Positions 1 through 11,286 of a stretch of 26,444 nucleotides of DNA are shown in pieces. The position numbers and the translations under genes are program-made. Origin of the DNA: a virus; the IMG/VR virus record IMGVR_UViG_3300030943_000149, positions 1 to 26,444 of that record; one strand, given 5' to 3'. Below the pieces are notes generated by a model. It was not told the origin of the DNA, did not search any database, and saw only the letters and a program-made list of their open reading frames with translations. Positions within the stretch are counted from its first letter, which is position 1, and every line of letters begins with the position of its first letter.

Positions 1-221
1 TTTGCGAAGACTGCACGGAATACTGTGACATATGCGGGACACAGCACGACCCTGAGGTTAAAGAGATGCACCAATGCGCTCAGTGCGTAGATGTGCGATT
101 CTGCAAATACGCGCTCGGCATAATCAACAAGTACGACATGTGGTTCTGTAGTCTCGACTGCCTGAACGAATACGAAAGAGATAATGACCTTCCGGTAACG
201 GAGGCAGGTGATTTAGCATGA
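1..221 (+). CDS. Partial cysteine-rich (zinc-finger-like) protein, C-terminal end
   Basis: Open from the window edge in the frame starting at base 3 and ending with TGA at 219-221, which overlaps the ATG of the JAMM gene (ATGA). The 72 visible residues contain nine cysteines, arranged as CxxC, CxxxC, CxxC, CxxC and a final FCSLDC, plus histidines at partial residues 15 and 23. This pattern fits at least two structural zinc sites, such as a treble-clef or MYM-like finger. The acidic tail after the last cysteine looks unstructured. The N-terminus is missing, so the whole domain cannot be named. The 4-base overlap places it in the same transcript as the JAMM/E1 pair, so it may be a partner of that system. 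Function not recognised. Confidence 0.7.
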   Translation, partial: CEDCTEYCDICGTQHDPEVKEMHQCAQCVDVRFCKYALGIINKYDMWFCSLDCLNEYERDNDLPVTEAGDLA

Positions 222-1288
222 GCAAAATGAAACCGCATAATGCGAAACCGCGGGTAGTTTGGGTGGGGGCAAAGGGCATCAAGCTGTTCTTCACACCTAC
301 CGCCATTGCTAAGATACAGTGTTACATTGAGGAATGCAACAAGGAAGTCGGGTGGCTTGGTAAGGTGACAGAGTACAAGGTGGCAGAGTACAAGGACAGC
401 CTGTACCTGTGCGACGAAACTTACCTGCTACATCAGGATGTAGGATCGGCAACAACGGAGATCACTCCGGCAGGGCTTGTAGCATTTGCAGAGGAAGTCG
501 GACTTGAGGAGATGGGTAAAGCGCATCTATGGGGGCACTCTCACGTAGACATGGGGACTTCACCTTCCGGTCAGGACAACTCGCAGATGTCACTGTTCAA
601 AGAGAACGGAATGGAATGGTTCTTCCGGATCATAGGGAACAAGAAGGGTGAAATCACGGTAACGTACTACAACTGGACAGCAGGCGTGGTAGTCGAGGAT
701 GTTCCGTGGGATGTATACGACCCTTTGGCAGACACTCTGCGCGAAGCAATCAAAGCAGAGATAGCCGAAAAGGTAAAGGATATCGTATACACACCCGACA
801 CCTATGTAGGATTTAACAGAAAGTGGGATAGAATGTTCGATGGGTATGACGATAAAGTGTGGGACAAGAAACATCAGTGCTGGGTATCCAAGGATTCCGA
901 CAATACGCAGACGCGCATAGTAACAGCGCCAGCCAGGCCGGACAACAAGGCCCCCGTAAAGATAACGTATAACACGCCTCTTGAAGAGGAGACGTGGTCA
1001 TTCAAGATCGAGGCGGCCTCCATACTTCCGGAATGGGTAAAGAGAAGGATATACGCAGGATCATACGGAGACTGTAGTAAGTACATAGATGTCAAAGAGG
1101 TCATGGAAGACTGGGCGATCAGCTATGAGGAGCTAGCAGAAGGAGTGTGCGCCCTGCTCGACGATATGGCGCTCGCAGAGAAGATGTTAGTAGCGGCTAG
1201 GAGTAAAGGGTACTCGGTATCCACTCTGATAGAGGGAGAAGGAGGTGTAGACGATAATGGACTACAGCAGACAGCTCAAGGAGTTTAA
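218..1288 (+). CDS. JAMM/JAB (MPN+) zinc metalloprotease domain protein
   Basis: The 356-residue product carries a complete JAMM zinc site: Glu43 in the strand EVGWLG, then His107-Ser-His109, seven residues, Ser117, two residues, Asp120 (HSHVDMGTSPSGQD). In this family the two His and the Asp bind zinc, and the Glu activates water to cut isopeptide or peptide bonds at the C-terminus of ubiquitin-like proteins; some members act in cysteine release or phage tail maturation. The domain covers about residues 20-155. The remaining 200 residues are an unrecognised extension: a helical stretch near 170-190, a Trp/Asp-rich part near 205-230, and a helical C-terminus. The ATG at 218 has AGGTGA six bases upstream and overlaps the previous stop. 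The last 32 bases overlap the E1-like gene, so the two are translationally coupled. It does not sit among tail genes, so a role in tail maturation is unlikely; deconjugation or counter-defence is inferred. Fold and active site are well supported; the substrate is unknown. Confidence 0.88.
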   Translation: MSKMKPHNAKPRVVWVGAKGIKLFFTPTAIAKIQCYIEECNKEVGWLGKVTEYKVAEYKDSLYLCDETYLLHQDVGSATTEITPAGLVAFAEEVGLEEMGKAHLWGHSHVDMGTSPSGQDNSQMSLFKENGMEWFFRIIGNKKGEITVTYYNWTAGVVVEDVPWDVYDPLADTLREAIKAEIAEKVKDIVYTPDTYVGFNRKWDRMFDGYDDKVWDKKHQCWVSKDSDNTQTRIVTAPARPDNKAPVKITYNTPLEEETWSFKIEAASILPEWVKRRIYAGSYGDCSKYIDVKEVMEDWAISYEELAEGVCALLDDMALAEKMLVAARSKGYSVSTLIEGEGGVDDNGLQQTAQGV

Positions 1289-1919
1289 CCCGGAAGACTT
1301 CAAACTTCCGGTACACGTTATCGGGTGCGGCGCAACGGGGTCATGGGTAGCCATGATCCTAGCCAAGCTCGGCGTGAAAGATATTCACATTTGGGACTTC
1401 GACATTGTGGAAGAGCACAATATTCCCAATCAGTTATTCGCTATGTCGGACATCGGCAAGTTAAAAACGGATGCTTGCATGGAAAATATGCTAAGATGCT
1501 CTGCATTAGAAAAGGTGATGGTACACTATGAGAGGGCAGACAAGGATTCGATGCTTTCAGGAATCGTGTTCCTGCTGACTGACACCATGAAGAGCCGCGA
1601 CGAGATATTCCGGAAATGCTTGAAGAACAACCTCGCCGTTCCGCTGTTTATCGAGACACGAACGTGCCTAGAGGGGGGAAGAGTATATGCGCTGAACCCA
1701 AGCAACAAGTCACAGTGTACCGAGTATGCGAAGACGCTGTACACGGACGAGGAGTCAGCAGTTTCGGAGTGCGGCACATCACAGTCCATGGCACCCACGT
1801 CGGCGCTGATTTCCAGCTTGGCGGTGTGGCAGATGGTGAAGTGGCACAAGGATGTGGAGATTGACAACGAGGTTCTGATCGACGCGAAGTACAACACATT
1901 CCTGGCACGCAAGTTCTAG
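1257..1919 (+). CDS. E1-like/ThiF-MoeB family adenylyltransferase
   Basis: 220-residue Rossmann-type protein with the E1/ThiF/MoeB nucleotide-binding signature. It has the glycine loop GCGATG at 23-28, then WDFDIVEEHNIPNQ (Asp47 and Asp49, Asn55), then DIGKLKTDA with Lys68/Lys70, and LTDTMKSRDEI with Asp109. Family members adenylate the C-terminal glycine of a ubiquitin-like protein or sulfur carrier. The Arg expected in the N-x-x-R-Q element is Asn58 here, and no pair of CxxC zinc knuckles is visible. Cys172 (SECGTSQSMAP), at the crossover-loop position, is the best candidate for a thioester cysteine; Cys154 and Cys137 are alternatives. At 220 residues it is short, close to a bare adenylation domain without E2, rhodanese or ubiquitin-fold appendages. 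GGAGG lies upstream of the ATG, inside the JAMM gene's end. The family is firm; whether it activates a modifier or has become a decoy is unknown. Confidence 0.88.
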   Translation: MDYSRQLKEFNPEDFKLPVHVIGCGATGSWVAMILAKLGVKDIHIWDFDIVEEHNIPNQLFAMSDIGKLKTDACMENMLRCSALEKVMVHYERADKDSMLSGIVFLLTDTMKSRDEIFRKCLKNNLAVPLFIETRTCLEGGRVYALNPSNKSQCTEYAKTLYTDEESAVSECGTSQSMAPTSALISSLAVWQMVKWHKDVEIDNEVLIDAKYNTFLARKF

Positions 1920-1929
1920 GAGGTGTAAC

Positions 1930-2220
1930 ATGATAGAGATTGAAAGAGTAAGGGACGATTCAATAAGACGCCTGCACGAAGTGTTTTCAGAAACAGGTAT
2001 GGGTGTCGTTGCAATGTTAAGAAATATTTACAACGACGAAGCGAACGGTGGAACGGCCTGCTCCGCACATAACGGAAGAGAGGGTAGGTGCAGGAAGAGC
2101 GTATCCCAAAAATGCTGTTCCACGATGATAAAATCGGGAAGCAAGGAATGCTTCGACTGCGACGAGCCATGCGCCGCCACAAAAGCTCTGCTTGAACATA
2201 TCAGGAAGGAGGGTTTATAA
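1930..2220 (+). CDS. Small cysteine-rich hypothetical protein
   Basis: 96 residues; the ATG follows an AGGAGGTG Shine-Dalgarno ten bases after the E1-like stop. Residues 1-35 look helical. Residues 44-81 hold seven cysteines (44, 54, 62, 63, 74, 77, 81), including adjacent Cys62-Cys63 and a CFDCDEPC motif, which suggests a zinc or iron-sulfur cluster site or a redox-active surface. No named family is recognised. The stop overlaps the next start by one base (TAATG), so it is cotranscribed with the E1/JAMM pair and the following small genes. It has no C-terminal Gly-Gly, so it does not look like the modifier of the E1-like enzyme. Confidence 0.72.
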   Translation: MIEIERVRDDSIRRLHEVFSETGMGVVAMLRNIYNDEANGGTACSAHNGREGRCRKSVSQKCCSTMIKSGSKECFDCDEPCAATKALLEHIRKEGL

Positions 2221-2480
2221 TGATAACGATAGCAAAAAGGAAAGAACACTGGGAAAAGTTGAACTCTCACGACGCGTGGCCGCCGGTAGTCGGCGAGACG
2301 TGCCGGATAACGTCGAAAGGGTGGAGATACCGATACCCGGAAGACCGCAACGCCGTAGTCATTGACTTCCAATACAAGTACAGTCTGCCCGGAATACTAG
2401 ACCAAGTACTTGTGAAGTTTGTTGAGGACGGAAGAACAAGGCGGTTCACGGCACTGAGCACCGTGGAGGTGAGAAGATGA
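2220..2480 (+). CDS. Small SH3/KOW-like barrel protein, paralogue 1 of 3
   Basis: 86 residues starting MITIAKRKEHW. It has an N-terminal helix-like segment and then alternating strand-like segments around GETCRITSKGWRYRYPED, AVVIDFQYKY and VLVKFVEDGRTRRFTALSTVEVRR. The last part ('V-V-F-x-D-G ... A-x-x-x-V-E-V') matches the layout of the two downstream neighbours. The fold is inferred to be a small SH3/KOW-type beta barrel that binds nucleic acid or protein; no catalytic motif is visible. It starts by a one-base stop/start overlap with the gene before. This is the most diverged of the three tandem copies. Confidence 0.7.
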   Translation: MITIAKRKEHWEKLNSHDAWPPVVGETCRITSKGWRYRYPEDRNAVVIDFQYKYSLPGILDQVLVKFVEDGRTRRFTALSTVEVRR

Positions 2481-2722
2481 TTACCATTGAGAAGTGTTCT
2501 ATATACGATCCACTAACCTACAATCAGTTAAGGCGGGGTATGCGCGTAAAAGCGATGTACAATGTGTCAGACATCGCCACAAATCTTGGTAGGGAAGGTG
2601 AGATAATCGATGTGTTTAGTAGCCCACGCCCTAACCATAATGTGTGTTTTGTGAGGTTTGACGGGGGAAACAGGTCAGCGTGGGCCTGCGCCGCGGAGGC
2701 GCTGGTGGAGGTGGATACATGA
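2477..2722 (+). CDS. Small SH3/KOW-like barrel protein, paralogue 2 of 3
   Basis: 81 residues beginning MITIEKCSIYD. Core elements are RRGMRVKAMYNV, NLGREGEIIDVF and VCFVRFDGGNRSAWACAAEA. These align with the next gene's VGMKVRVVRDV, HLGREGEVTKVY and DALVRFDEMR...WWVSAKAVE. A basic strand, a 'GREGE' turn and a 'VRFD' strand recall the KOW/SH3-like barrels of small phage proteins; this is inferred from pattern only. Perfect Shine-Dalgarno GGAGGTGA. ATGA overlaps with both neighbours imply translational coupling. Function unknown. Confidence 0.75.
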   Translation: MITIEKCSIYDPLTYNQLRRGMRVKAMYNVSDIATNLGREGEIIDVFSSPRPNHNVCFVRFDGGNRSAWACAAEALVEVDT

Positions 2723-2967
2723 TAACGATTGAGCGTGAGATCGAGCCTGAAATACTAAAACGTTCCGACCTGAAAGTAGGAATGAAGGTAAGGGTAGTGC
2801 GAGATGTGATTGACGCACATAACCACCTCGGAAGAGAGGGAGAAGTAACTAAGGTGTATCCGGAAAGCGCATCGTCCGAATATGACGCCCTGGTTCGATT
2901 CGACGAAATGCGAGAGGGTCACTCGCGTACTTGGTGGGTGTCAGCAAAAGCGGTGGAGATAATATAG
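2719..2967 (+). CDS. Small SH3/KOW-like barrel protein, paralogue 3 of 3
   Basis: 82 residues from the ATG at 2719 (MITIEREIEPEIL). This start is preferred over an in-frame start further upstream because GGAGGTG lies just before it, because it forms an ATGA overlap with the preceding stop, and because it restores the MITI N-terminus shared by all three copies. The barrel core VGMKVRVVRDV-HLGREGEVTKVY-VRFD-WWVSAKAVEII closely matches the preceding gene. Likely arose by tandem duplication. No catalytic residues are evident. Confidence 0.75.
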   Translation: MITIEREIEPEILKRSDLKVGMKVRVVRDVIDAHNHLGREGEVTKVYPESASSEYDALVRFDEMREGHSRTWWVSAKAVEII

Positions 2968-3324: not shown

Positions 3325-3753
3325 TTGGGAGAAGTATTGGAAATATTCTCGCAGATAGACAGTAAGGCTAAGTTCATACGCGTGCTGGCGATCTACAATA
3401 AATTGGAGGAGGCACGCCGCGTCGCAGAGATGGACGACATCGAGTTCAAGAAGCTCCTGCCCACACTGACAAAGAGCATCACCAAGCTCAATGCACAGTG
3501 TGACGGCATGTACGGATCTGTAAAGGAAATGTTGAAGGGCATGACTGACGAGGCTGGGATGCTTGAGGTGGCAATTTCTGTGCTATCACTAGCAGACGGC
3601 TACACAAGGTCGCTGTCAAGCGCAAAGGTTGGTAGCATAGTAGCTACAGACACGTGCGCTGAGGTGGCGCAAAAGCTAAAGACATCTATGATAGTCGAGA
3701 GATTATCAGAGTGTGTGGGGGTAAAGAAAGATGGCGACAATAAGCAAAGTTGA
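3325..3753 (+). CDS. Hypothetical alpha-helical protein upstream of the helicase
   Basis: 142 residues with a TTG start at 3325, supported by the AAGGGGGCGA ribosome site just upstream and by the promoter 23 bases before it. The sequence is almost entirely helical by appearance (FSQIDSKAKFIRVLAIYNKLEEARRV and similar stretches), with no motif recognised. The next ATG in frame would remove over 30 residues and has no comparable ribosome site. It overlaps the helicase gene by 23 bases. As the first gene after the promoter it is an early gene, perhaps a regulator or helicase accessory factor; that role is inferred from position only. Confidence 0.68.
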   Translation: MGEVLEIFSQIDSKAKFIRVLAIYNKLEEARRVAEMDDIEFKKLLPTLTKSITKLNAQCDGMYGSVKEMLKGMTDEAGMLEVAISVLSLADGYTRSLSSAKVGSIVATDTCAEVAQKLKTSMIVERLSECVGVKKDGDNKQS

Positions 3754-5431
3754 CGACAAGATACAGCTATTCACAGAGTATTCTGACATTGAGAAATGCC
3801 GTAGTATCCCATGCGGAAAGTGGAATAAGAAGGTTTCGTGCTGGGAATACCCACTTGAAGCACTGCCAAATGTGATTGGAGCTTTCCCAAGAGCGACTGT
3901 GGACAGTATATTGAAGGGGCAGTTACGCAGGTTTGATGTGATAGAGCGCAACGTATCGGCGTTGGTGCGCGGAGAAACGGAGCCGCGAGACCACCCGTTC
4001 CTGATGGCACACCAACGTAAATGCCGCGACATTGCGATATTCAAGAACAAGTACGCTTGGTACATGGATACCGGAACAGGCAAGACGCTGACGGCATACG
4101 CCGTTATCGAAGACAAAATAACCGCAAAGTGGCTTGTAATATGCCCGCGTTCTATCATCAAGACGGCGTGGGTGGAAGACCACCTACACTTTTTTCCGTA
4201 CCTTAAAGTCTTACCCATGTCGACGAACATGAAGAAGAAGGACTACCTTGAGGTTGCGGAACGGTGGGGGCTTGGGTATCTAGGAAAGTTGAAGACTGCC
4301 GATATACCAAAGTACCTGATGCAGTATGCAGATGTAATCGTAATCAACCCGGAGTCGTTCAAGATACGGGACGACGTGAGGACGTGGCCACACGCAGGGC
4401 TTATCGTAGACGAGTCTTCGATACTGCGTGACATGAGATCGCAAATAACCAAATCGGTAATCGAGCACGCCGACAGGATGCAATACACTTATCTCCTTTC
4501 AGGGAAGCCGGCGCCTAACAGTGACTTGGAATACTTTGCGCAAATGCGTGTCGTGAACCGCGCGCTGTTAGGCGACAGCTTCTTTAAATTCAGAGACACG
4601 TTCTTCAAGCCGATAGACTACTTCGGAAGGGATTTTAGAATGATTCCTGAGATGAAGGAGGCCTTCTCGCAGAGACTTGCGAAGTCGTGCATCTACATAT
4701 CCAAAGGAGAATGTTTAGATTTGCCGAAAGATATGCCTCCGATCATCCGTAGCGTAGAGCTACCGAAAGACGCGATGCGGCAGTACCGTCAGATGGAGAA
4801 GGACTCTATACTGCTGCTACAGGATAAGTCAGTTGCGGCAAGCAACAAGCTGGCGGCAATGATGAAGCTAAGGCAAATGACGTCGGGATTCATCATCGAC
4901 ACGAACGACGACAGCAAGGTGATGCAACTGCATCACGCGAAGCTGGACGAGCTACGCAGTGTTATTACAGAACTTGGAGACAACAAGGCTGTGATATGGA
5001 TCAACTTCAAGCACGAGGTAGCGGACATCATGGAACTCGTGGCATCAATGGGAAAGACGGCTGTTACAGCATACAGCGGAACGAAGAACACAGACGACAG
5101 TATTGACGACTTCAAGAGCGACAAGGCACAGTTCATCATAGCGCACCCAAAGACGCTGAAATACGGCGTCACGTTCACCGGGGAAAGCATGGTGAAGAAC
5201 TGCACCTACGCGATATACTACAGTATGTCCCACTCATTTGAGGACTACTACCAGTCACACGATAGAATCTACAGAAAGGGGCAGACGGAAGCCTGCACTT
5301 TCATTCTTCTGATAGCAGAGCACACCATAGACGAGGATATCTCTGCTGTCGTAACAAGAAAGGGGAGCAATGCAGAAGTGATGGAAAATATGATTAGGAG
5401 GTGTGGAGATGCCGAAATCAGCGAAGACTGA
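3731..5431 (+). CDS. SNF2-type superfamily 2 DNA helicase/translocase
   Basis: 566 residues with the SF2/SNF2 motif series: a Q-like motif LMAHQRKCRD (91-100), Walker A MDTGTGKT (112-119), motif II LIVDESS with Asp227-Glu228 (DES in place of DEAH), motif III LLSGKPAPNS (255-264), motif IV VIWINFKHE, and motif VI QSHDRIYRKGQ (508-518) with the arginine finger. Members use ATP to translocate on double-stranded DNA and remodel protein-DNA or branched structures. About 85 residues precede the helicase core and may be an HARP-like or substrate-binding segment (WNKKVSCWEYPLEALP resembles the DNA-annealing-helicase type, inferred). It lies among replication genes next to a VRR-NUC nuclease, a pairing common in phages. 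No other replicative helicase is visible, so this may be the phage's main DNA motor for initiation or recombination. Confidence 0.92.
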   Translation: MATISKVDDKIQLFTEYSDIEKCRSIPCGKWNKKVSCWEYPLEALPNVIGAFPRATVDSILKGQLRRFDVIERNVSALVRGETEPRDHPFLMAHQRKCRDIAIFKNKYAWYMDTGTGKTLTAYAVIEDKITAKWLVICPRSIIKTAWVEDHLHFFPYLKVLPMSTNMKKKDYLEVAERWGLGYLGKLKTADIPKYLMQYADVIVINPESFKIRDDVRTWPHAGLIVDESSILRDMRSQITKSVIEHADRMQYTYLLSGKPAPNSDLEYFAQMRVVNRALLGDSFFKFRDTFFKPIDYFGRDFRMIPEMKEAFSQRLAKSCIYISKGECLDLPKDMPPIIRSVELPKDAMRQYRQMEKDSILLLQDKSVAASNKLAAMMKLRQMTSGFIIDTNDDSKVMQLHHAKLDELRSVITELGDNKAVIWINFKHEVADIMELVASMGKTAVTAYSGTKNTDDSIDDFKSDKAQFIIAHPKTLKYGVTFTGESMVKNCTYAIYYSMSHSFEDYYQSHDRIYRKGQTEACTFILLIAEHTIDEDISAVVTRKGSNAEVMENMIRRCGDAEISED

Positions 5432-9198: not shown

Positions 9199-11286
9199 AT
9201 GCGCATTAAGGAATTTCCGGTATATGACACACCAGTTGACAGATTTAAGTCTCTCGATGCACCCGGACACGCCAAACTGGCAAAGTTTATTATAGCTAAC
9301 AGCATTATGGTGGCGATAGACACAGAAACTTACTACGACCCTGAGCTTAGGGCTGTTGTTAGATTCGTACAAGGTTCGCCAAACAACAGGCCATTCTGCA
9401 TGACACTTACTTACGTGTCTGAGGATGGTGAGTACAACAGCTTCTATGCTGAGCAGGACTGCATCACTATGTACAAAGACATGCTGTACAGCGGGAACGT
9501 GGCGAAGATACTTCACAACGCCAAGTACGACATGCACATGCTGATGAATATCGGGCTAGAAGTTCGGGGGAAGATTTGGGACACCATGCTGATGATACAC
9601 CTGATAGATGAAGAGCACGTGTGTAATACGCCATCAGGCGGTAAGGTTGAGTCGAAGAAGCTGAAAGACCTTGCATACCATTACCTAGGTGAGGACGGGC
9701 ATAAGTACGAAGACCTTGTGGACGAGGTGCGTCACTGCATCGCGCTACGCAGGGAGTGCGCAAAGAACCTCGTGTCCTACAAGGACGCGGCGGATGCGTG
9801 CCCTCTGATAATGAAGGACTATGCCTGCTCTGATACCGAGTTCACATACCAGTTGTTCGTGCTGTTCTACGAAGAGCTCGTCAAGCAAGAGTTGCTTGAA
9901 GCATACGACGTTGACTTCAACGCCACGATGGCGACACTCTATCAGGAGCGAGATGGCATACTCGTAGACATAGACTACTTCGACGCCGTTGAGGCAGAGT
10001 TGCAGGCTAACATGGACGAGACCACAGCGCTGATAATCGAGCTGATACCAAAGGGCCTGAACATCAATTCGGGCCGAGACTTGGTAGAAGGATTCGCTAC
10101 ACTAGGGCTGACATGGAGATGGTACACAGAGAAGGGGGAGGTGAAGACAGATGACAAGATACTTAGGAACCTGAACAATCTGTACGTGGGAACACCGCTA
10201 GCAGAACTGGCGTCCTTAATAATGCAATACAGGGAGTCATCAAAGCTCGTCGGTACTTTCATCGCACAGATACGGCAGTTTACACAGTGGGACGGGAGAA
10301 TACACCCTAACTTCAATGTGTCGCCGCGTGACGACGGTAAAGGTGGTACCGTAACTGGTCGCCTGTCTAGCTCCGACCCCAATCTGCAAAACATGCCGAA
10401 GGACGACAAGCGTATCCGCAAGGGCATCATACCTACGCCGGGGTACGTATTCGTGGAAATGGACTACTCTCAACAGGAGTACCGGCTGTTGGCGCACTAT
10501 GCGCAGGACAGGAACTTCATGCAGATCGTTCATGACGGGAAAGACATCCACGCGGGCACCGCTGAGCTACTGCTTCACGTAAGCATGGCGGAGTCCATGA
10601 TGAAGAAGTACCGTGACGTTGGAAAGCGTCTCAACTTCGCTTTAGTCTACGGCCTAGGCCTAGCCGCGCTTGCCGCGTCGCTGGGACTCAAGATAGACGA
10701 GCCCACATACAAGAAGGCTAGCTTCTTTCTGAGAAACTACGGGTGTGTTCCATGGGGCATGCCAACACTGGACATCGCCCTCAATTTATGTCATAATGAG
10801 GGCGAGAAGGAAATAGTTACATACTACTATTCCGACGAGGCTAAGGGTGCAATCGCAGAGGCCGAGAGAATCAAGTCTGAGTATTTCAGACAATTCCCAC
10901 AAATTCAAGACTTACTCAAAGCGTGCATCAACACGGCAAAGTATCGTGGATGGATTAAGACATGGACTGGCAGGAGACGGCACTTCAAGAACCCAAAAGC
11001 AGATGGCTATAAAGCACCAAATGCTCTGATACAGGGGGGGTGCGGCGACATCACGAAAATTAAAATGTGGGAGTGTGTGCAATACCTGAAACCCTACAAA
11101 TCGAGGCTAATCAACAACATCCACGATGCCTTGCTATTTGAGATTCACAAGAGCGAGATGCGCCTGATACCTGAACTTGCCGCTATCATGAAGGACTTAG
11201 ATTTCAGCGTCCCTATGGATTGCAGTATCGAAATGTCTGAAAAGTCATGGGGGGATATGAAAGATTATGAGTATGAACAAAATTAG
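9199..11286 (+). CDS. Family A DNA polymerase with 3'-5' exonuclease domain
   Basis: 695 residues, the size of a T7-like phage replicative polymerase. The proofreading domain shows ExoI AIDTET (Asp41, Glu43), ExoII HNAKYDMHML (Asn107, Asp111) and ExoIII YACSDTEF (Tyr208, Asp212). The polymerase domain shows TGRLSSSDPNLQNMP (386-400), motif A VEMDYSQQEYRLLA (Asp422), motif B RDVGKRLNFALVYG (Arg472, Lys476, Phe480, Tyr484) and motif C NNIHDALLFEI (His642, Asp643). The usual Glu after the catalytic Asp in motif C (HDE) is Ala644. Phe480 at the fingers position matches the Phe of E. coli Pol I rather than the Tyr of T7. It has an AGGAG site nine bases before ATG. It lies directly after the putative SSB and overlaps a small acidic gene, and no primase or primase-helicase is seen in the window. 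Confidence 0.96.
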   Translation: MRIKEFPVYDTPVDRFKSLDAPGHAKLAKFIIANSIMVAIDTETYYDPELRAVVRFVQGSPNNRPFCMTLTYVSEDGEYNSFYAEQDCITMYKDMLYSGNVAKILHNAKYDMHMLMNIGLEVRGKIWDTMLMIHLIDEEHVCNTPSGGKVESKKLKDLAYHYLGEDGHKYEDLVDEVRHCIALRRECAKNLVSYKDAADACPLIMKDYACSDTEFTYQLFVLFYEELVKQELLEAYDVDFNATMATLYQERDGILVDIDYFDAVEAELQANMDETTALIIELIPKGLNINSGRDLVEGFATLGLTWRWYTEKGEVKTDDKILRNLNNLYVGTPLAELASLIMQYRESSKLVGTFIAQIRQFTQWDGRIHPNFNVSPRDDGKGGTVTGRLSSSDPNLQNMPKDDKRIRKGIIPTPGYVFVEMDYSQQEYRLLAHYAQDRNFMQIVHDGKDIHAGTAELLLHVSMAESMMKKYRDVGKRLNFALVYGLGLAALAASLGLKIDEPTYKKASFFLRNYGCVPWGMPTLDIALNLCHNEGEKEIVTYYYSDEAKGAIAEAERIKSEYFRQFPQIQDLLKACINTAKYRGWIKTWTGRRRHFKNPKADGYKAPNALIQGGCGDITKIKMWECVQYLKPYKSRLINNIHDALLFEIHKSEMRLIPELAAIMKDLDFSVPMDCSIEMSEKSWGDMKDYEYEQN

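Follow-up and report, generated by a model that had tools for sequence, protein, structure and literature searches.

A phage cassette with genes for a ubiquitin-like protein, an E2-like protein, a JAMM protease and an E1-like enzyme

We analysed a stretch of viral DNA of 26,444 nucleotides (positions 1 to 26,444 of IMG/VR virus record IMGVR_UViG_3300030943_000149; hereafter the window), near the left end of which the gene for a JAMM metalloprotease overlaps that for an E1-like adenylating enzyme. An earlier note, made from the sequence alone, had described these two genes as a pair without a recognised ubiquitin-like protein (Ubl) or E2, and had suggested that the missing partners may lie to the left of the window. 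Indeed, both were found on the overlapping IMG/VR contig IMGVR_UViG_3300028857_000012 (43,760 bases), which reaches 7,067 bases further left; the contig and the window were identical at 9,285 of the 9,285 bases shared with L002 and likewise over the 9,916 shared with L001 (L-numbers denote loci gathered in this analysis). The description of the pair as lacking its partners was thus correct for the window alone and wrong for the whole locus. The contig left of base 1, where the note had proposed to look for an E2 or a protein ending in Gly-Gly, holds a probable E2-like gene and a Ubl gene, the product of which ends in KGNL and not in Gly-Gly. JAMM and E1 form the right-hand half of a four-gene phage cassette, complete and probably serving Ubl conjugation, in which the genes stand in the order Ubl, E2-zinc, JAMM, E1, with no additional gene between the four:

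L002:5485-5694 (window -1582 to -1373): Ubl, 69 amino acids, ends QVKGNL
L002:5864-7288 (window -1203 to 221): full E2-like/zinc-domain gene, 474 amino acids
3..221, plus strand: C-terminal part of the E2-like/zinc-domain gene, cut by the window edge
218..1288, plus strand: JAMM metalloprotease, 356 amino acids; 4-base overlap with the E2-like gene
1257..1919, plus strand: E1-like adenylating enzyme (ThiF family), 220 amino acids; 32-base overlap with the JAMM gene, as the earlier note had it

The four cassette proteins

The zinc site of the JAMM protein had been claimed to be complete, and E43, H107xH109 and S117xxD120 were indeed all present. These residues, together with W46 and the GHSHV core, were invariant in 24 aligned JAMMs, an alignment that left out the JAMMs of crAss-like and Flavobacterium phages, in which the Glu lies in EWSG and was not lined up by MAFFT. 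The window protein alone scored 13.7 bits against Pfam Prok-JAB, below the 25-bit cut-off, and its family profile matched Rpn11 (best E 0.01), BRCC36 and JAMM1 in the PDB; the Pfam scan of the JAMM protein gave no NlpC match. The E1 is one single ThiF domain of 220 amino acids (Pfam ThiF, E 1.8e-23), the profile of which matched UBA5 (3e-17), ThiF (3.8e-14), NEDD8 E1, MoeB, Cap2 and BubCD. Residues G23, G25, D47, D49, K70 and D109, as well as C172, were invariant among 26 aligned E1s. The assignment of the protein to the ThiF/E1 family with its ATP site stands, with Asn58 as the one departure.

The E2-like protein carries the motif HPHCSSEGSPCLG at residues 284-296, which includes Cys294 and has the same His-to-Cys spacing as the eukaryotic E2 motif HPN...GxICL. 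Across 84 distinct E2-like domains, aligned by a hidden Markov model (HMM) with no further selection, Cys294 was kept in 83 (Val in the second copy of L037), His286 in 83 (one gap) and Gly296 in 83. Asp329 was invariant in 38 aligned domains; since these were our own choice among 81 distinct ones, with one Cys-less row dropped beforehand, invariance in the smaller set is partly built in, whereas the 84-row count is free of such selection. A first profile, made from the whole protein, was swamped by the coiled coil and was replaced by a domain-only profile. Among the 50 matches listed by VIA for the structural model, 47 are E2 enzymes or E2 fusions by title and cover residues about 201-345 (Z 6.0-7.0, root-mean-square deviation (rmsd) 3.7-5.2 over 99-122 residues), although, by VIA's own warning, a Z under 8 may reflect merely a common arrangement. 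Motif, predicted fold and context, and not sequence statistics, make it probable that residues about 201-345 of the 474 adopt an E2 fold. Two E2-like genes per locus were seen in L015, L037, L042/L059, L071 and L082/L083; the second one of L037 lacks the catalytic Cys.

Beyond this domain, eight Cys at residues 362-406 are arranged as four CxxC pairs (C362xxC365-x11-C377xxC380-x4-C385xxC388-x14-C403xxC406), with FYVE-like spacers (11, 4, 14) that would suit a RING/FYVE cross-brace. This zinc domain is the left one of the cysteine-rich proteins that the earlier note had correctly placed on either side of the pair, where it appeared cut by the window edge. A zinc-finger fold is supported by prediction: by VIA, residues about 350-411 resembled a RIM zinc finger (Z 7.2, rmsd 2.3 over 53, below the tool's safe level) and the Rim2 zinc finger (Z 6.6), and the top Foldseek match of the E2-like/zinc model was rabphilin-3A (E 0.27). 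The domain may have an E3-like role. A regular expression found cross-brace-like Cys spacing in five other E2-like proteins (L006, L024, L026, L069 and L078), several more have a Cys-rich tail without that spacing, and many others have no such tail.

Of the small gene families near the cassettes, that of the Ubl is shared most widely, with 78 ORFs (open reading frames) in 69 loci, including four that were judged shadow-frame artefacts and removed before tails were counted. The family profile of the Ubl matched SAMP2 best in the PDB (3.9e-6), with weaker matches to SAMP2 and ThiS and a still weaker one to TtuB. The AlphaFold2 model (pLDDT 86) gave TtuB, SUMO2 and NEDD8 as top Foldseek matches (1.1e-4 to 2.3e-4) and aligned with SAMP1 by VIA (Z 9.6, rmsd 1.9 over 66), in support of a predicted Ubl fold. 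Pfam and NCBIfam scans of the window phage's proteins gave no E2 or Ubl family above cut-off; the window Ubl matched Pfam SAMP2 at E 0.019, below it.

The tails of the family-A Ubls follow a common pattern, 54 of 63 non-identical ones ending in [KR]G[NAGES] plus 0-3 residues; among those 54, the tripeptide is KGN in 41, and 32 end right after it. Longer tails beyond KGN were found in the Ubls of L040 and L042. Some Ubls are tandem, with three units in L013 and two in L015, L039, L070/L071, L072, L081 and L082/L083, the units ending in KGN, RGA or KGS. The simplest reading of these tails would be that JAMM cleaves after the Gly; in the archaeon Candidatus Caldiarchaeum subterraneum, the GG of pro-ubiquitin is exposed by an Rpn11 homologue (PMC5654768). 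A strict requirement for GG was dropped in view of the KGN tail and of the family-B tails. A conserved small protein family was also seen in 19 loci (e.g. L060:4583-4969 and L005:2692-3117), directly upstream of the family-B Ubl in eight members shown, and is a candidate partner or target.

Recurrence in phages and cellular genomes

A JAMM alignment, searched against viral contigs, found 164 relatives; the best 80 were retained, and the counts that follow describe JAMM-bearing loci only. From one-per-species genomes, a search with E1 yielded 10 loci. Both locus searches used two-sequence alignments, and E1, E2 and Ubl were recovered by HMMs built within the locus set and by clustering the small ORFs nearby. 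Searches of viral contigs with single proteins matched only the window's own contig, and the E1 of L005, used as a single-protein query in the same way, matched one contig (94% identical). Of 95 loci listed, L006, L093, L096 and L097 have no JAMM match and stand outside the 69 JAMM clusters (below 80% identity). E1 was present in 68 of these clusters, E2 in 64, Ubl in 64 and all four in 60. The nine incomplete clusters are L007, L008, L023/L024, L030, L039, L064, L079, L087 and L100, of which L023/L024, L030, L039 and L100 are short contigs or are cut at the gene; the E2-like and Ubl-like genes of L007 and L008 are assignments made purely by eye.

Gene order varied among loci (u-E2-J-E1, E2-J-E1-U, U-E2-J-E1, U-E1-J-E2 and rarer ones), and linkage was tight. 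The earlier note would have been refuted by related phages carrying either gene alone at random positions with no conserved link; the outcome was the opposite, none of the 180 E1 and E2 matches in the JAMM-bearing loci being farther than 1.5 kb from a JAMM. The proteins also co-vary, in that pairwise distances across 63 loci correlated with r 0.88 for JAMM/E1, 0.79 for E1/E2 and 0.79 for JAMM/E2, and 0 of 999 permutations were as high. Because the shared ancestry of whole phages contributes to such values, they demonstrate co-inheritance and not interaction.

Among named phages, tblastn with the E1 gave matches in 73 phage records, of which 29 bear Flavobacterium and 26 Bacteroides in their names, and tblastn with the window JAMM, with the JAMM of L092 or with the E2-like protein gave no matches. 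We translated the genes preceding 'ThiF' in the crAss-like phages cr111_1 and PhiCrAssBcn18, in Flavobacterium phage Fpv3 and in Dulem virus 41. By eye, the cultured crAss-like and Flavobacterium phages have the same gene order as the window phage. Inspection of the translations in the same manner revealed, in all four phages, a Ubl-like domain fused to a further domain (the boundary falling after ..KSGG, ..RSG, ..KSG or ..SSG), an E2-like gene with HSH or an HSH-like motif ... C and a G two residues on, and a JAMM (EWSG, HSH..SGxD). The JAMM profile A10 matched Fpv3, cr111_1 and PhiCrAssBcn18 at 5.4e-6 to 2.5e-9; the E2 and Ubl HMMs gave no match in Fpv3 or cr111_1. That Dulem virus 41 has no JAMM, as the miss by A10 had indicated, was overturned by the translation, which contains a JAMM-like gene with EWSG and HSH..SxxD. 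The rebuilt profile A13 includes the JAMMs of Dulem virus 41 and PhiCrAssBcn18, which therefore match it by construction.

The Xanthomonas jumbo phage PhiXhv-12 encodes a Ubl with a free -GG end, an E1 and an 892-amino-acid protein that has HPHM...GSLCLG and is rich in Cys at its end. Neither A10 nor A13 detected a JAMM in the 227,648 bases of this phage, and none of six matches to the degenerate codon pattern HxH-x7-S/T/C-xxD reads as one.

Relatives were also found in cells. Contigs of metagenome-assembled genomes of Methylomirabilota (L093-L098) carry a related E2-(JAMM)-E1-Ubl set, with Ubls that have KIRGG or KIKGG near the end. In L097 the E2, E1 and Ubl (..KIKGGR) lie near genes that by eye resemble lipA and lipB, and the set is therefore probably chromosomal; in the phylum of G003, the genome behind this locus, the E2 profile was found in 20 of 95 genomes. 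For the Oscillospiraceae locus L099, which stems from genome G004, a sample of 291 genomes of the class to which G004 belongs had the JAMM profile in 5, one of them G004 itself. The cassette is thus not exclusive to phages.

A putative conjugation pathway and the alternatives

Judging from sequence and structure prediction, the cassette is very probably a self-contained, reversible, phage-encoded Ubl-conjugation pathway made up of Ubl, E2-zinc, JAMM and E1. A phage-made modification system was among the proposals of the earlier note, and this one gained ground with the finding of the Ubl and E2-like genes and the recurrence of the four-gene set in other phages. In the reaction scheme that we infer, with its order, its cleavage point and its E3, the Ubl would be produced as a precursor ending in ..QVKGNL and be trimmed by JAMM to ..QVKG, after which the exposed Gly would be adenylated by E1 and the activated tag handed to Cys294 of the E2. 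The E2 would then join the tag to protein amines, perhaps steered by its own zinc domain as E3, and JAMM would also take the tag off. The pathway may act on replication or host-takeover proteins.

Several observations weigh against this pathway. The first His of HPH was kept in 40 of the 84 E2-like domains, the other 44 having no His or a gap. The E2 profile gave no significant match to known E2s (UBE2W-like 2a7l, E 0.58, which aligned on its own HPHV..NGHICL), and hhalign against five Cap2-like E2 regions returned a probability of 0.3%, with the His and Cys nevertheless in register. The AlphaFold2 model is of modest quality (pLDDT 66, pTM 0.45), residues about 200-345 faring better, and Foldseek with this model gave no match at E<=0.001. 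Because of the weak sequence matches, the modest model and VIA Z values under 8, we grade the E2 fold as probable and not as proven. For the Ubl model, beta-grasp proteins with no tagging role scored as high as or higher than SAMP1 by VIA (RNF subunit, Z 10.3; transcobalamin, Z 10.2), with the RAF RBD also near the SAMP1 level (Z about 9), and the fold alone is therefore no proof of a tagging role. The tail of the window Ubl is KGNL and not GG; of the family-B Ubls (18 non-identical ones), NA forms the exact end of 14, and a terminal Gly occurs solely in that of L087. The Ubls of L096 and L097, loci with no JAMM match, end in KGGR, one residue past the Gly, and are left unexplained by the trimming model. 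Finally, in the E1, Asn58 aligns with an Arg of UBA5, and the negatives obtained with A10 are not final, because A10 missed the JAMM-like gene of Dulem virus 41.

Closest in logic to the phage cassette is the ubiquitylation operon of C. subterraneum, with its compact pro-ubiquitin, E1, E2, small RING-type E3 and neighbouring precursor-trimming Rpn11/JAMM (PMC5654768). That operon is archaeal, with a GG tail and a separate small RING protein (PMC5654768), whereas the cassette is phage-borne and has a KGN tail, a zinc domain fused to the E2 and a short E1. In the bacterial operon type 6d, too, a JAB, an E1, an E2 and a Ubl with a Gly at its C terminus are encoded by separate genes; 6d further has a JAB-N domain and an additional alpha-helical protein, and its E2 lacks the usual His (PMC1779556). 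Unlike 6d, the window phage has an E2-like protein that retains HPH and no extra gene between the four. By analogy, the cassette would work like the archaeal Ub-E1-E2-E3-Rpn11 set and like 6d. The Bil operon (BilABCD) also has an E2 and a JAB. It resembles the cassette in combining Ubl and E1 genes in a bacterial conjugation operon, but BilD has an inactive and an active adenylation domain (PMC11354881), whereas the E1 here is a single 220-amino-acid domain; moreover, Bil serves host defence and the cassette is borne by phages. The likeness to type II CBASS (Cap2/Cap3) and Bub lies in the matches of the E1 profile to Cap2 and BubCD. Cap2, however, is an E2-E1 fusion (PMC12355090) and works on a CD-NTase, whereas here the E2-like protein and the E1 are separate genes accompanied by a Ubl, and no CD-NTase match was found among the 19 genes Pfam-scanned around the cassette. 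The lambda tail proteins I and K share with the cassette a phage Ubl and a JAMM, but are tail genes with no E1 or E2 in the part of the survey used here (PMC1779556), whereas the cassette lies beside a helicase; it is with this tail I/K pair that phages figure there (Iyer 2006, PMC1779556). The Methylomirabilota sets L093-L098 have homologous E2, E1 and Ubl and differ in not being phage, that of L097 being probably chromosomal. The cassette thus fails tested defining features of 6d, Bil, type II CBASS and lambda I/K. A literature search, the coverage of which lacked bioRxiv preprints and most subscription papers, found no report of a phage Ubl-E2-JAMM-E1 set.

In the window, the cassette is followed by an SNF2 helicase, an HNH endonuclease and a DNA polymerase; two of these serve as context here:

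3731..5431, plus strand: SNF2-type helicase (Pfam SNF2-rel_dom 1.1e-12; phrog_62 2.5e-94)
9199..11286, plus strand, as the cassette: DNA polymerase (phrog_17, 3e-121)

Matches to virion and tail families lie on the opposite strand, at 19.6-25.4 kb. Among 90 neighbour proteins sampled from 167 listed (longest ORFs taken; two belong to the contig of the window), the families of stated function seen most often were helicases, primases and DNA polymerases, with SNF2 in 13 (window helicase included), DNA polymerase A in 7 and DnaB_C in 6; the ranking covers the top 25 of 123 PHROG and the top 25 of 37 Pfam families. In crAss-like phages the cassette lies among primase, uracil-DNA glycosylase and exonuclease genes. 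By position only, this setting points to replication or early takeover, and a sample of longest ORFs favours replication enzymes.

The setting bears directly on a structural or assembly role, in which the Ubl would modify, or be processed with, virion proteins in the manner of lambda tail I/K, or would sabotage competing phages in the manner of Bil. Bil acts by conjugation to phage parts, which favours the sabotage variant, and phage tail pairs of Ubl and JAB are known (PMC1779556). Since the annotated neighbours are helicase, polymerase and primase genes and not structural ones, we consider such a role unlikely. Counter-defence, a guess of the earlier note, would have the JAMM (and the E1) undo or hijack host conjugation-based immunity such as type II CBASS or Bil, of which JAMM and E1 are the paired enzymes; the matches of the E1 profile to Cap2 and BubCD fit this as well. 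The loci, however, carry their own Ubl and E2-like gene, with all four genes in 60 of the 69 clusters, and PhiXhv-12 retains Ubl, E2-like gene and E1 with no JAMM detected, the reverse of what a pure deconjugase predicts. With neighbours that are mostly replication genes, the guess gained no support, and we regard it as quite improbable. Another guess of the note, a sulfur-carrier module in which a ThiS/MoaD-like Ubl would be trimmed by JAMM and adenylated by E1 for thiocarboxylation, agrees with the Ubl profile matches to SAMP2, ThiS and, more weakly, TtuB, with the E1 matches to ThiF and MoeB, and with the JAB+Ubl+E1 sulfur clusters described by Iyer 2006 (PMC1779556), but is very improbable and likewise gained no support, given mostly replication genes as neighbours, an E2-like gene with a conserved Cys as part of the set, no family of sulfur metabolism in the top 25 of Pfam or of PHROG for the 90 sampled neighbours, and no sulfur-metabolism or rhodanese gene among the part of the neighbours that was Pfam-scanned around the cassette.

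A phage-encoded conjugation pathway can also be given a bolder form, possible though doubtful in our view: phages of many hosts would carry a complete reversible Ubl system with tandem precursors, an E2 with a built-in E3-like zinc domain and a new tail chemistry (cleavage between KG and N), acting on the replication machinery. If true, such a replication-targeted system would be a viral counterpart of the eukaryotic control of DNA replication by ubiquitin and SUMO. Bacterial Ubl conjugation has so far mainly been known as a means by which hosts defend themselves against phages (type II CBASS, Bil), a picture that a widespread phage-borne cascade with its own tag would reverse. The cascade would offer a minimal four-protein ubiquitin pathway for study, supply tandem Ubl precursors encoded by bacterial viruses, and account for genes of cultured phages that are annotated 'thiamine biosynthesis protein', 'metalloprotease' or 'hypothetical'; it suggests that some bacterial viruses may tag proteins much as human cells do. 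A cultured Bacteroides phage, such as the crAss-like PhiCrAssBcn18 in B. intestinalis, carries the cassette, which makes the targets of the cassette testable.

Further features near the cassette

The second of the cysteine-rich proteins flanking the pair lies directly after the E1 gene:

1930..2220, plus strand: small cysteine-rich protein, 96 amino acids, 7 Cys, MI(x)I start; a candidate for membership of the cassette

Neither Pfam (E<=1) nor PHROG (E<=0.1) gave a match for it. Twelve small genes at L002:2309-5394 and window 1930-2967 begin with MIxI (mostly ATGATAACGAT-like) and differ in their bodies after this common start; several are Cys-rich.

Between the Ubl and E2 genes, the intergenic stretch L002:5690-5866 is predicted to form a strongly folded RNA, with a branched stem and 21-nt inverted-repeat arms (z -3.27; 0 of 200 shuffles equally stable). 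It gave no Rfam match at E<=1, and an exact 24-base piece of it was found solely in loci of the same contig.

Reverse-transcriptase-like genes with YADD follow shortly after the E1 gene in five loci (L005:6954-8291, L011:8987-10219, L060:8857-9999, L079:8578-9684 and L085:7677-8831); among the 90 sampled neighbours, the PHROG reverse transcriptase family was matched in 5 and Pfam RVT_1 in 4.

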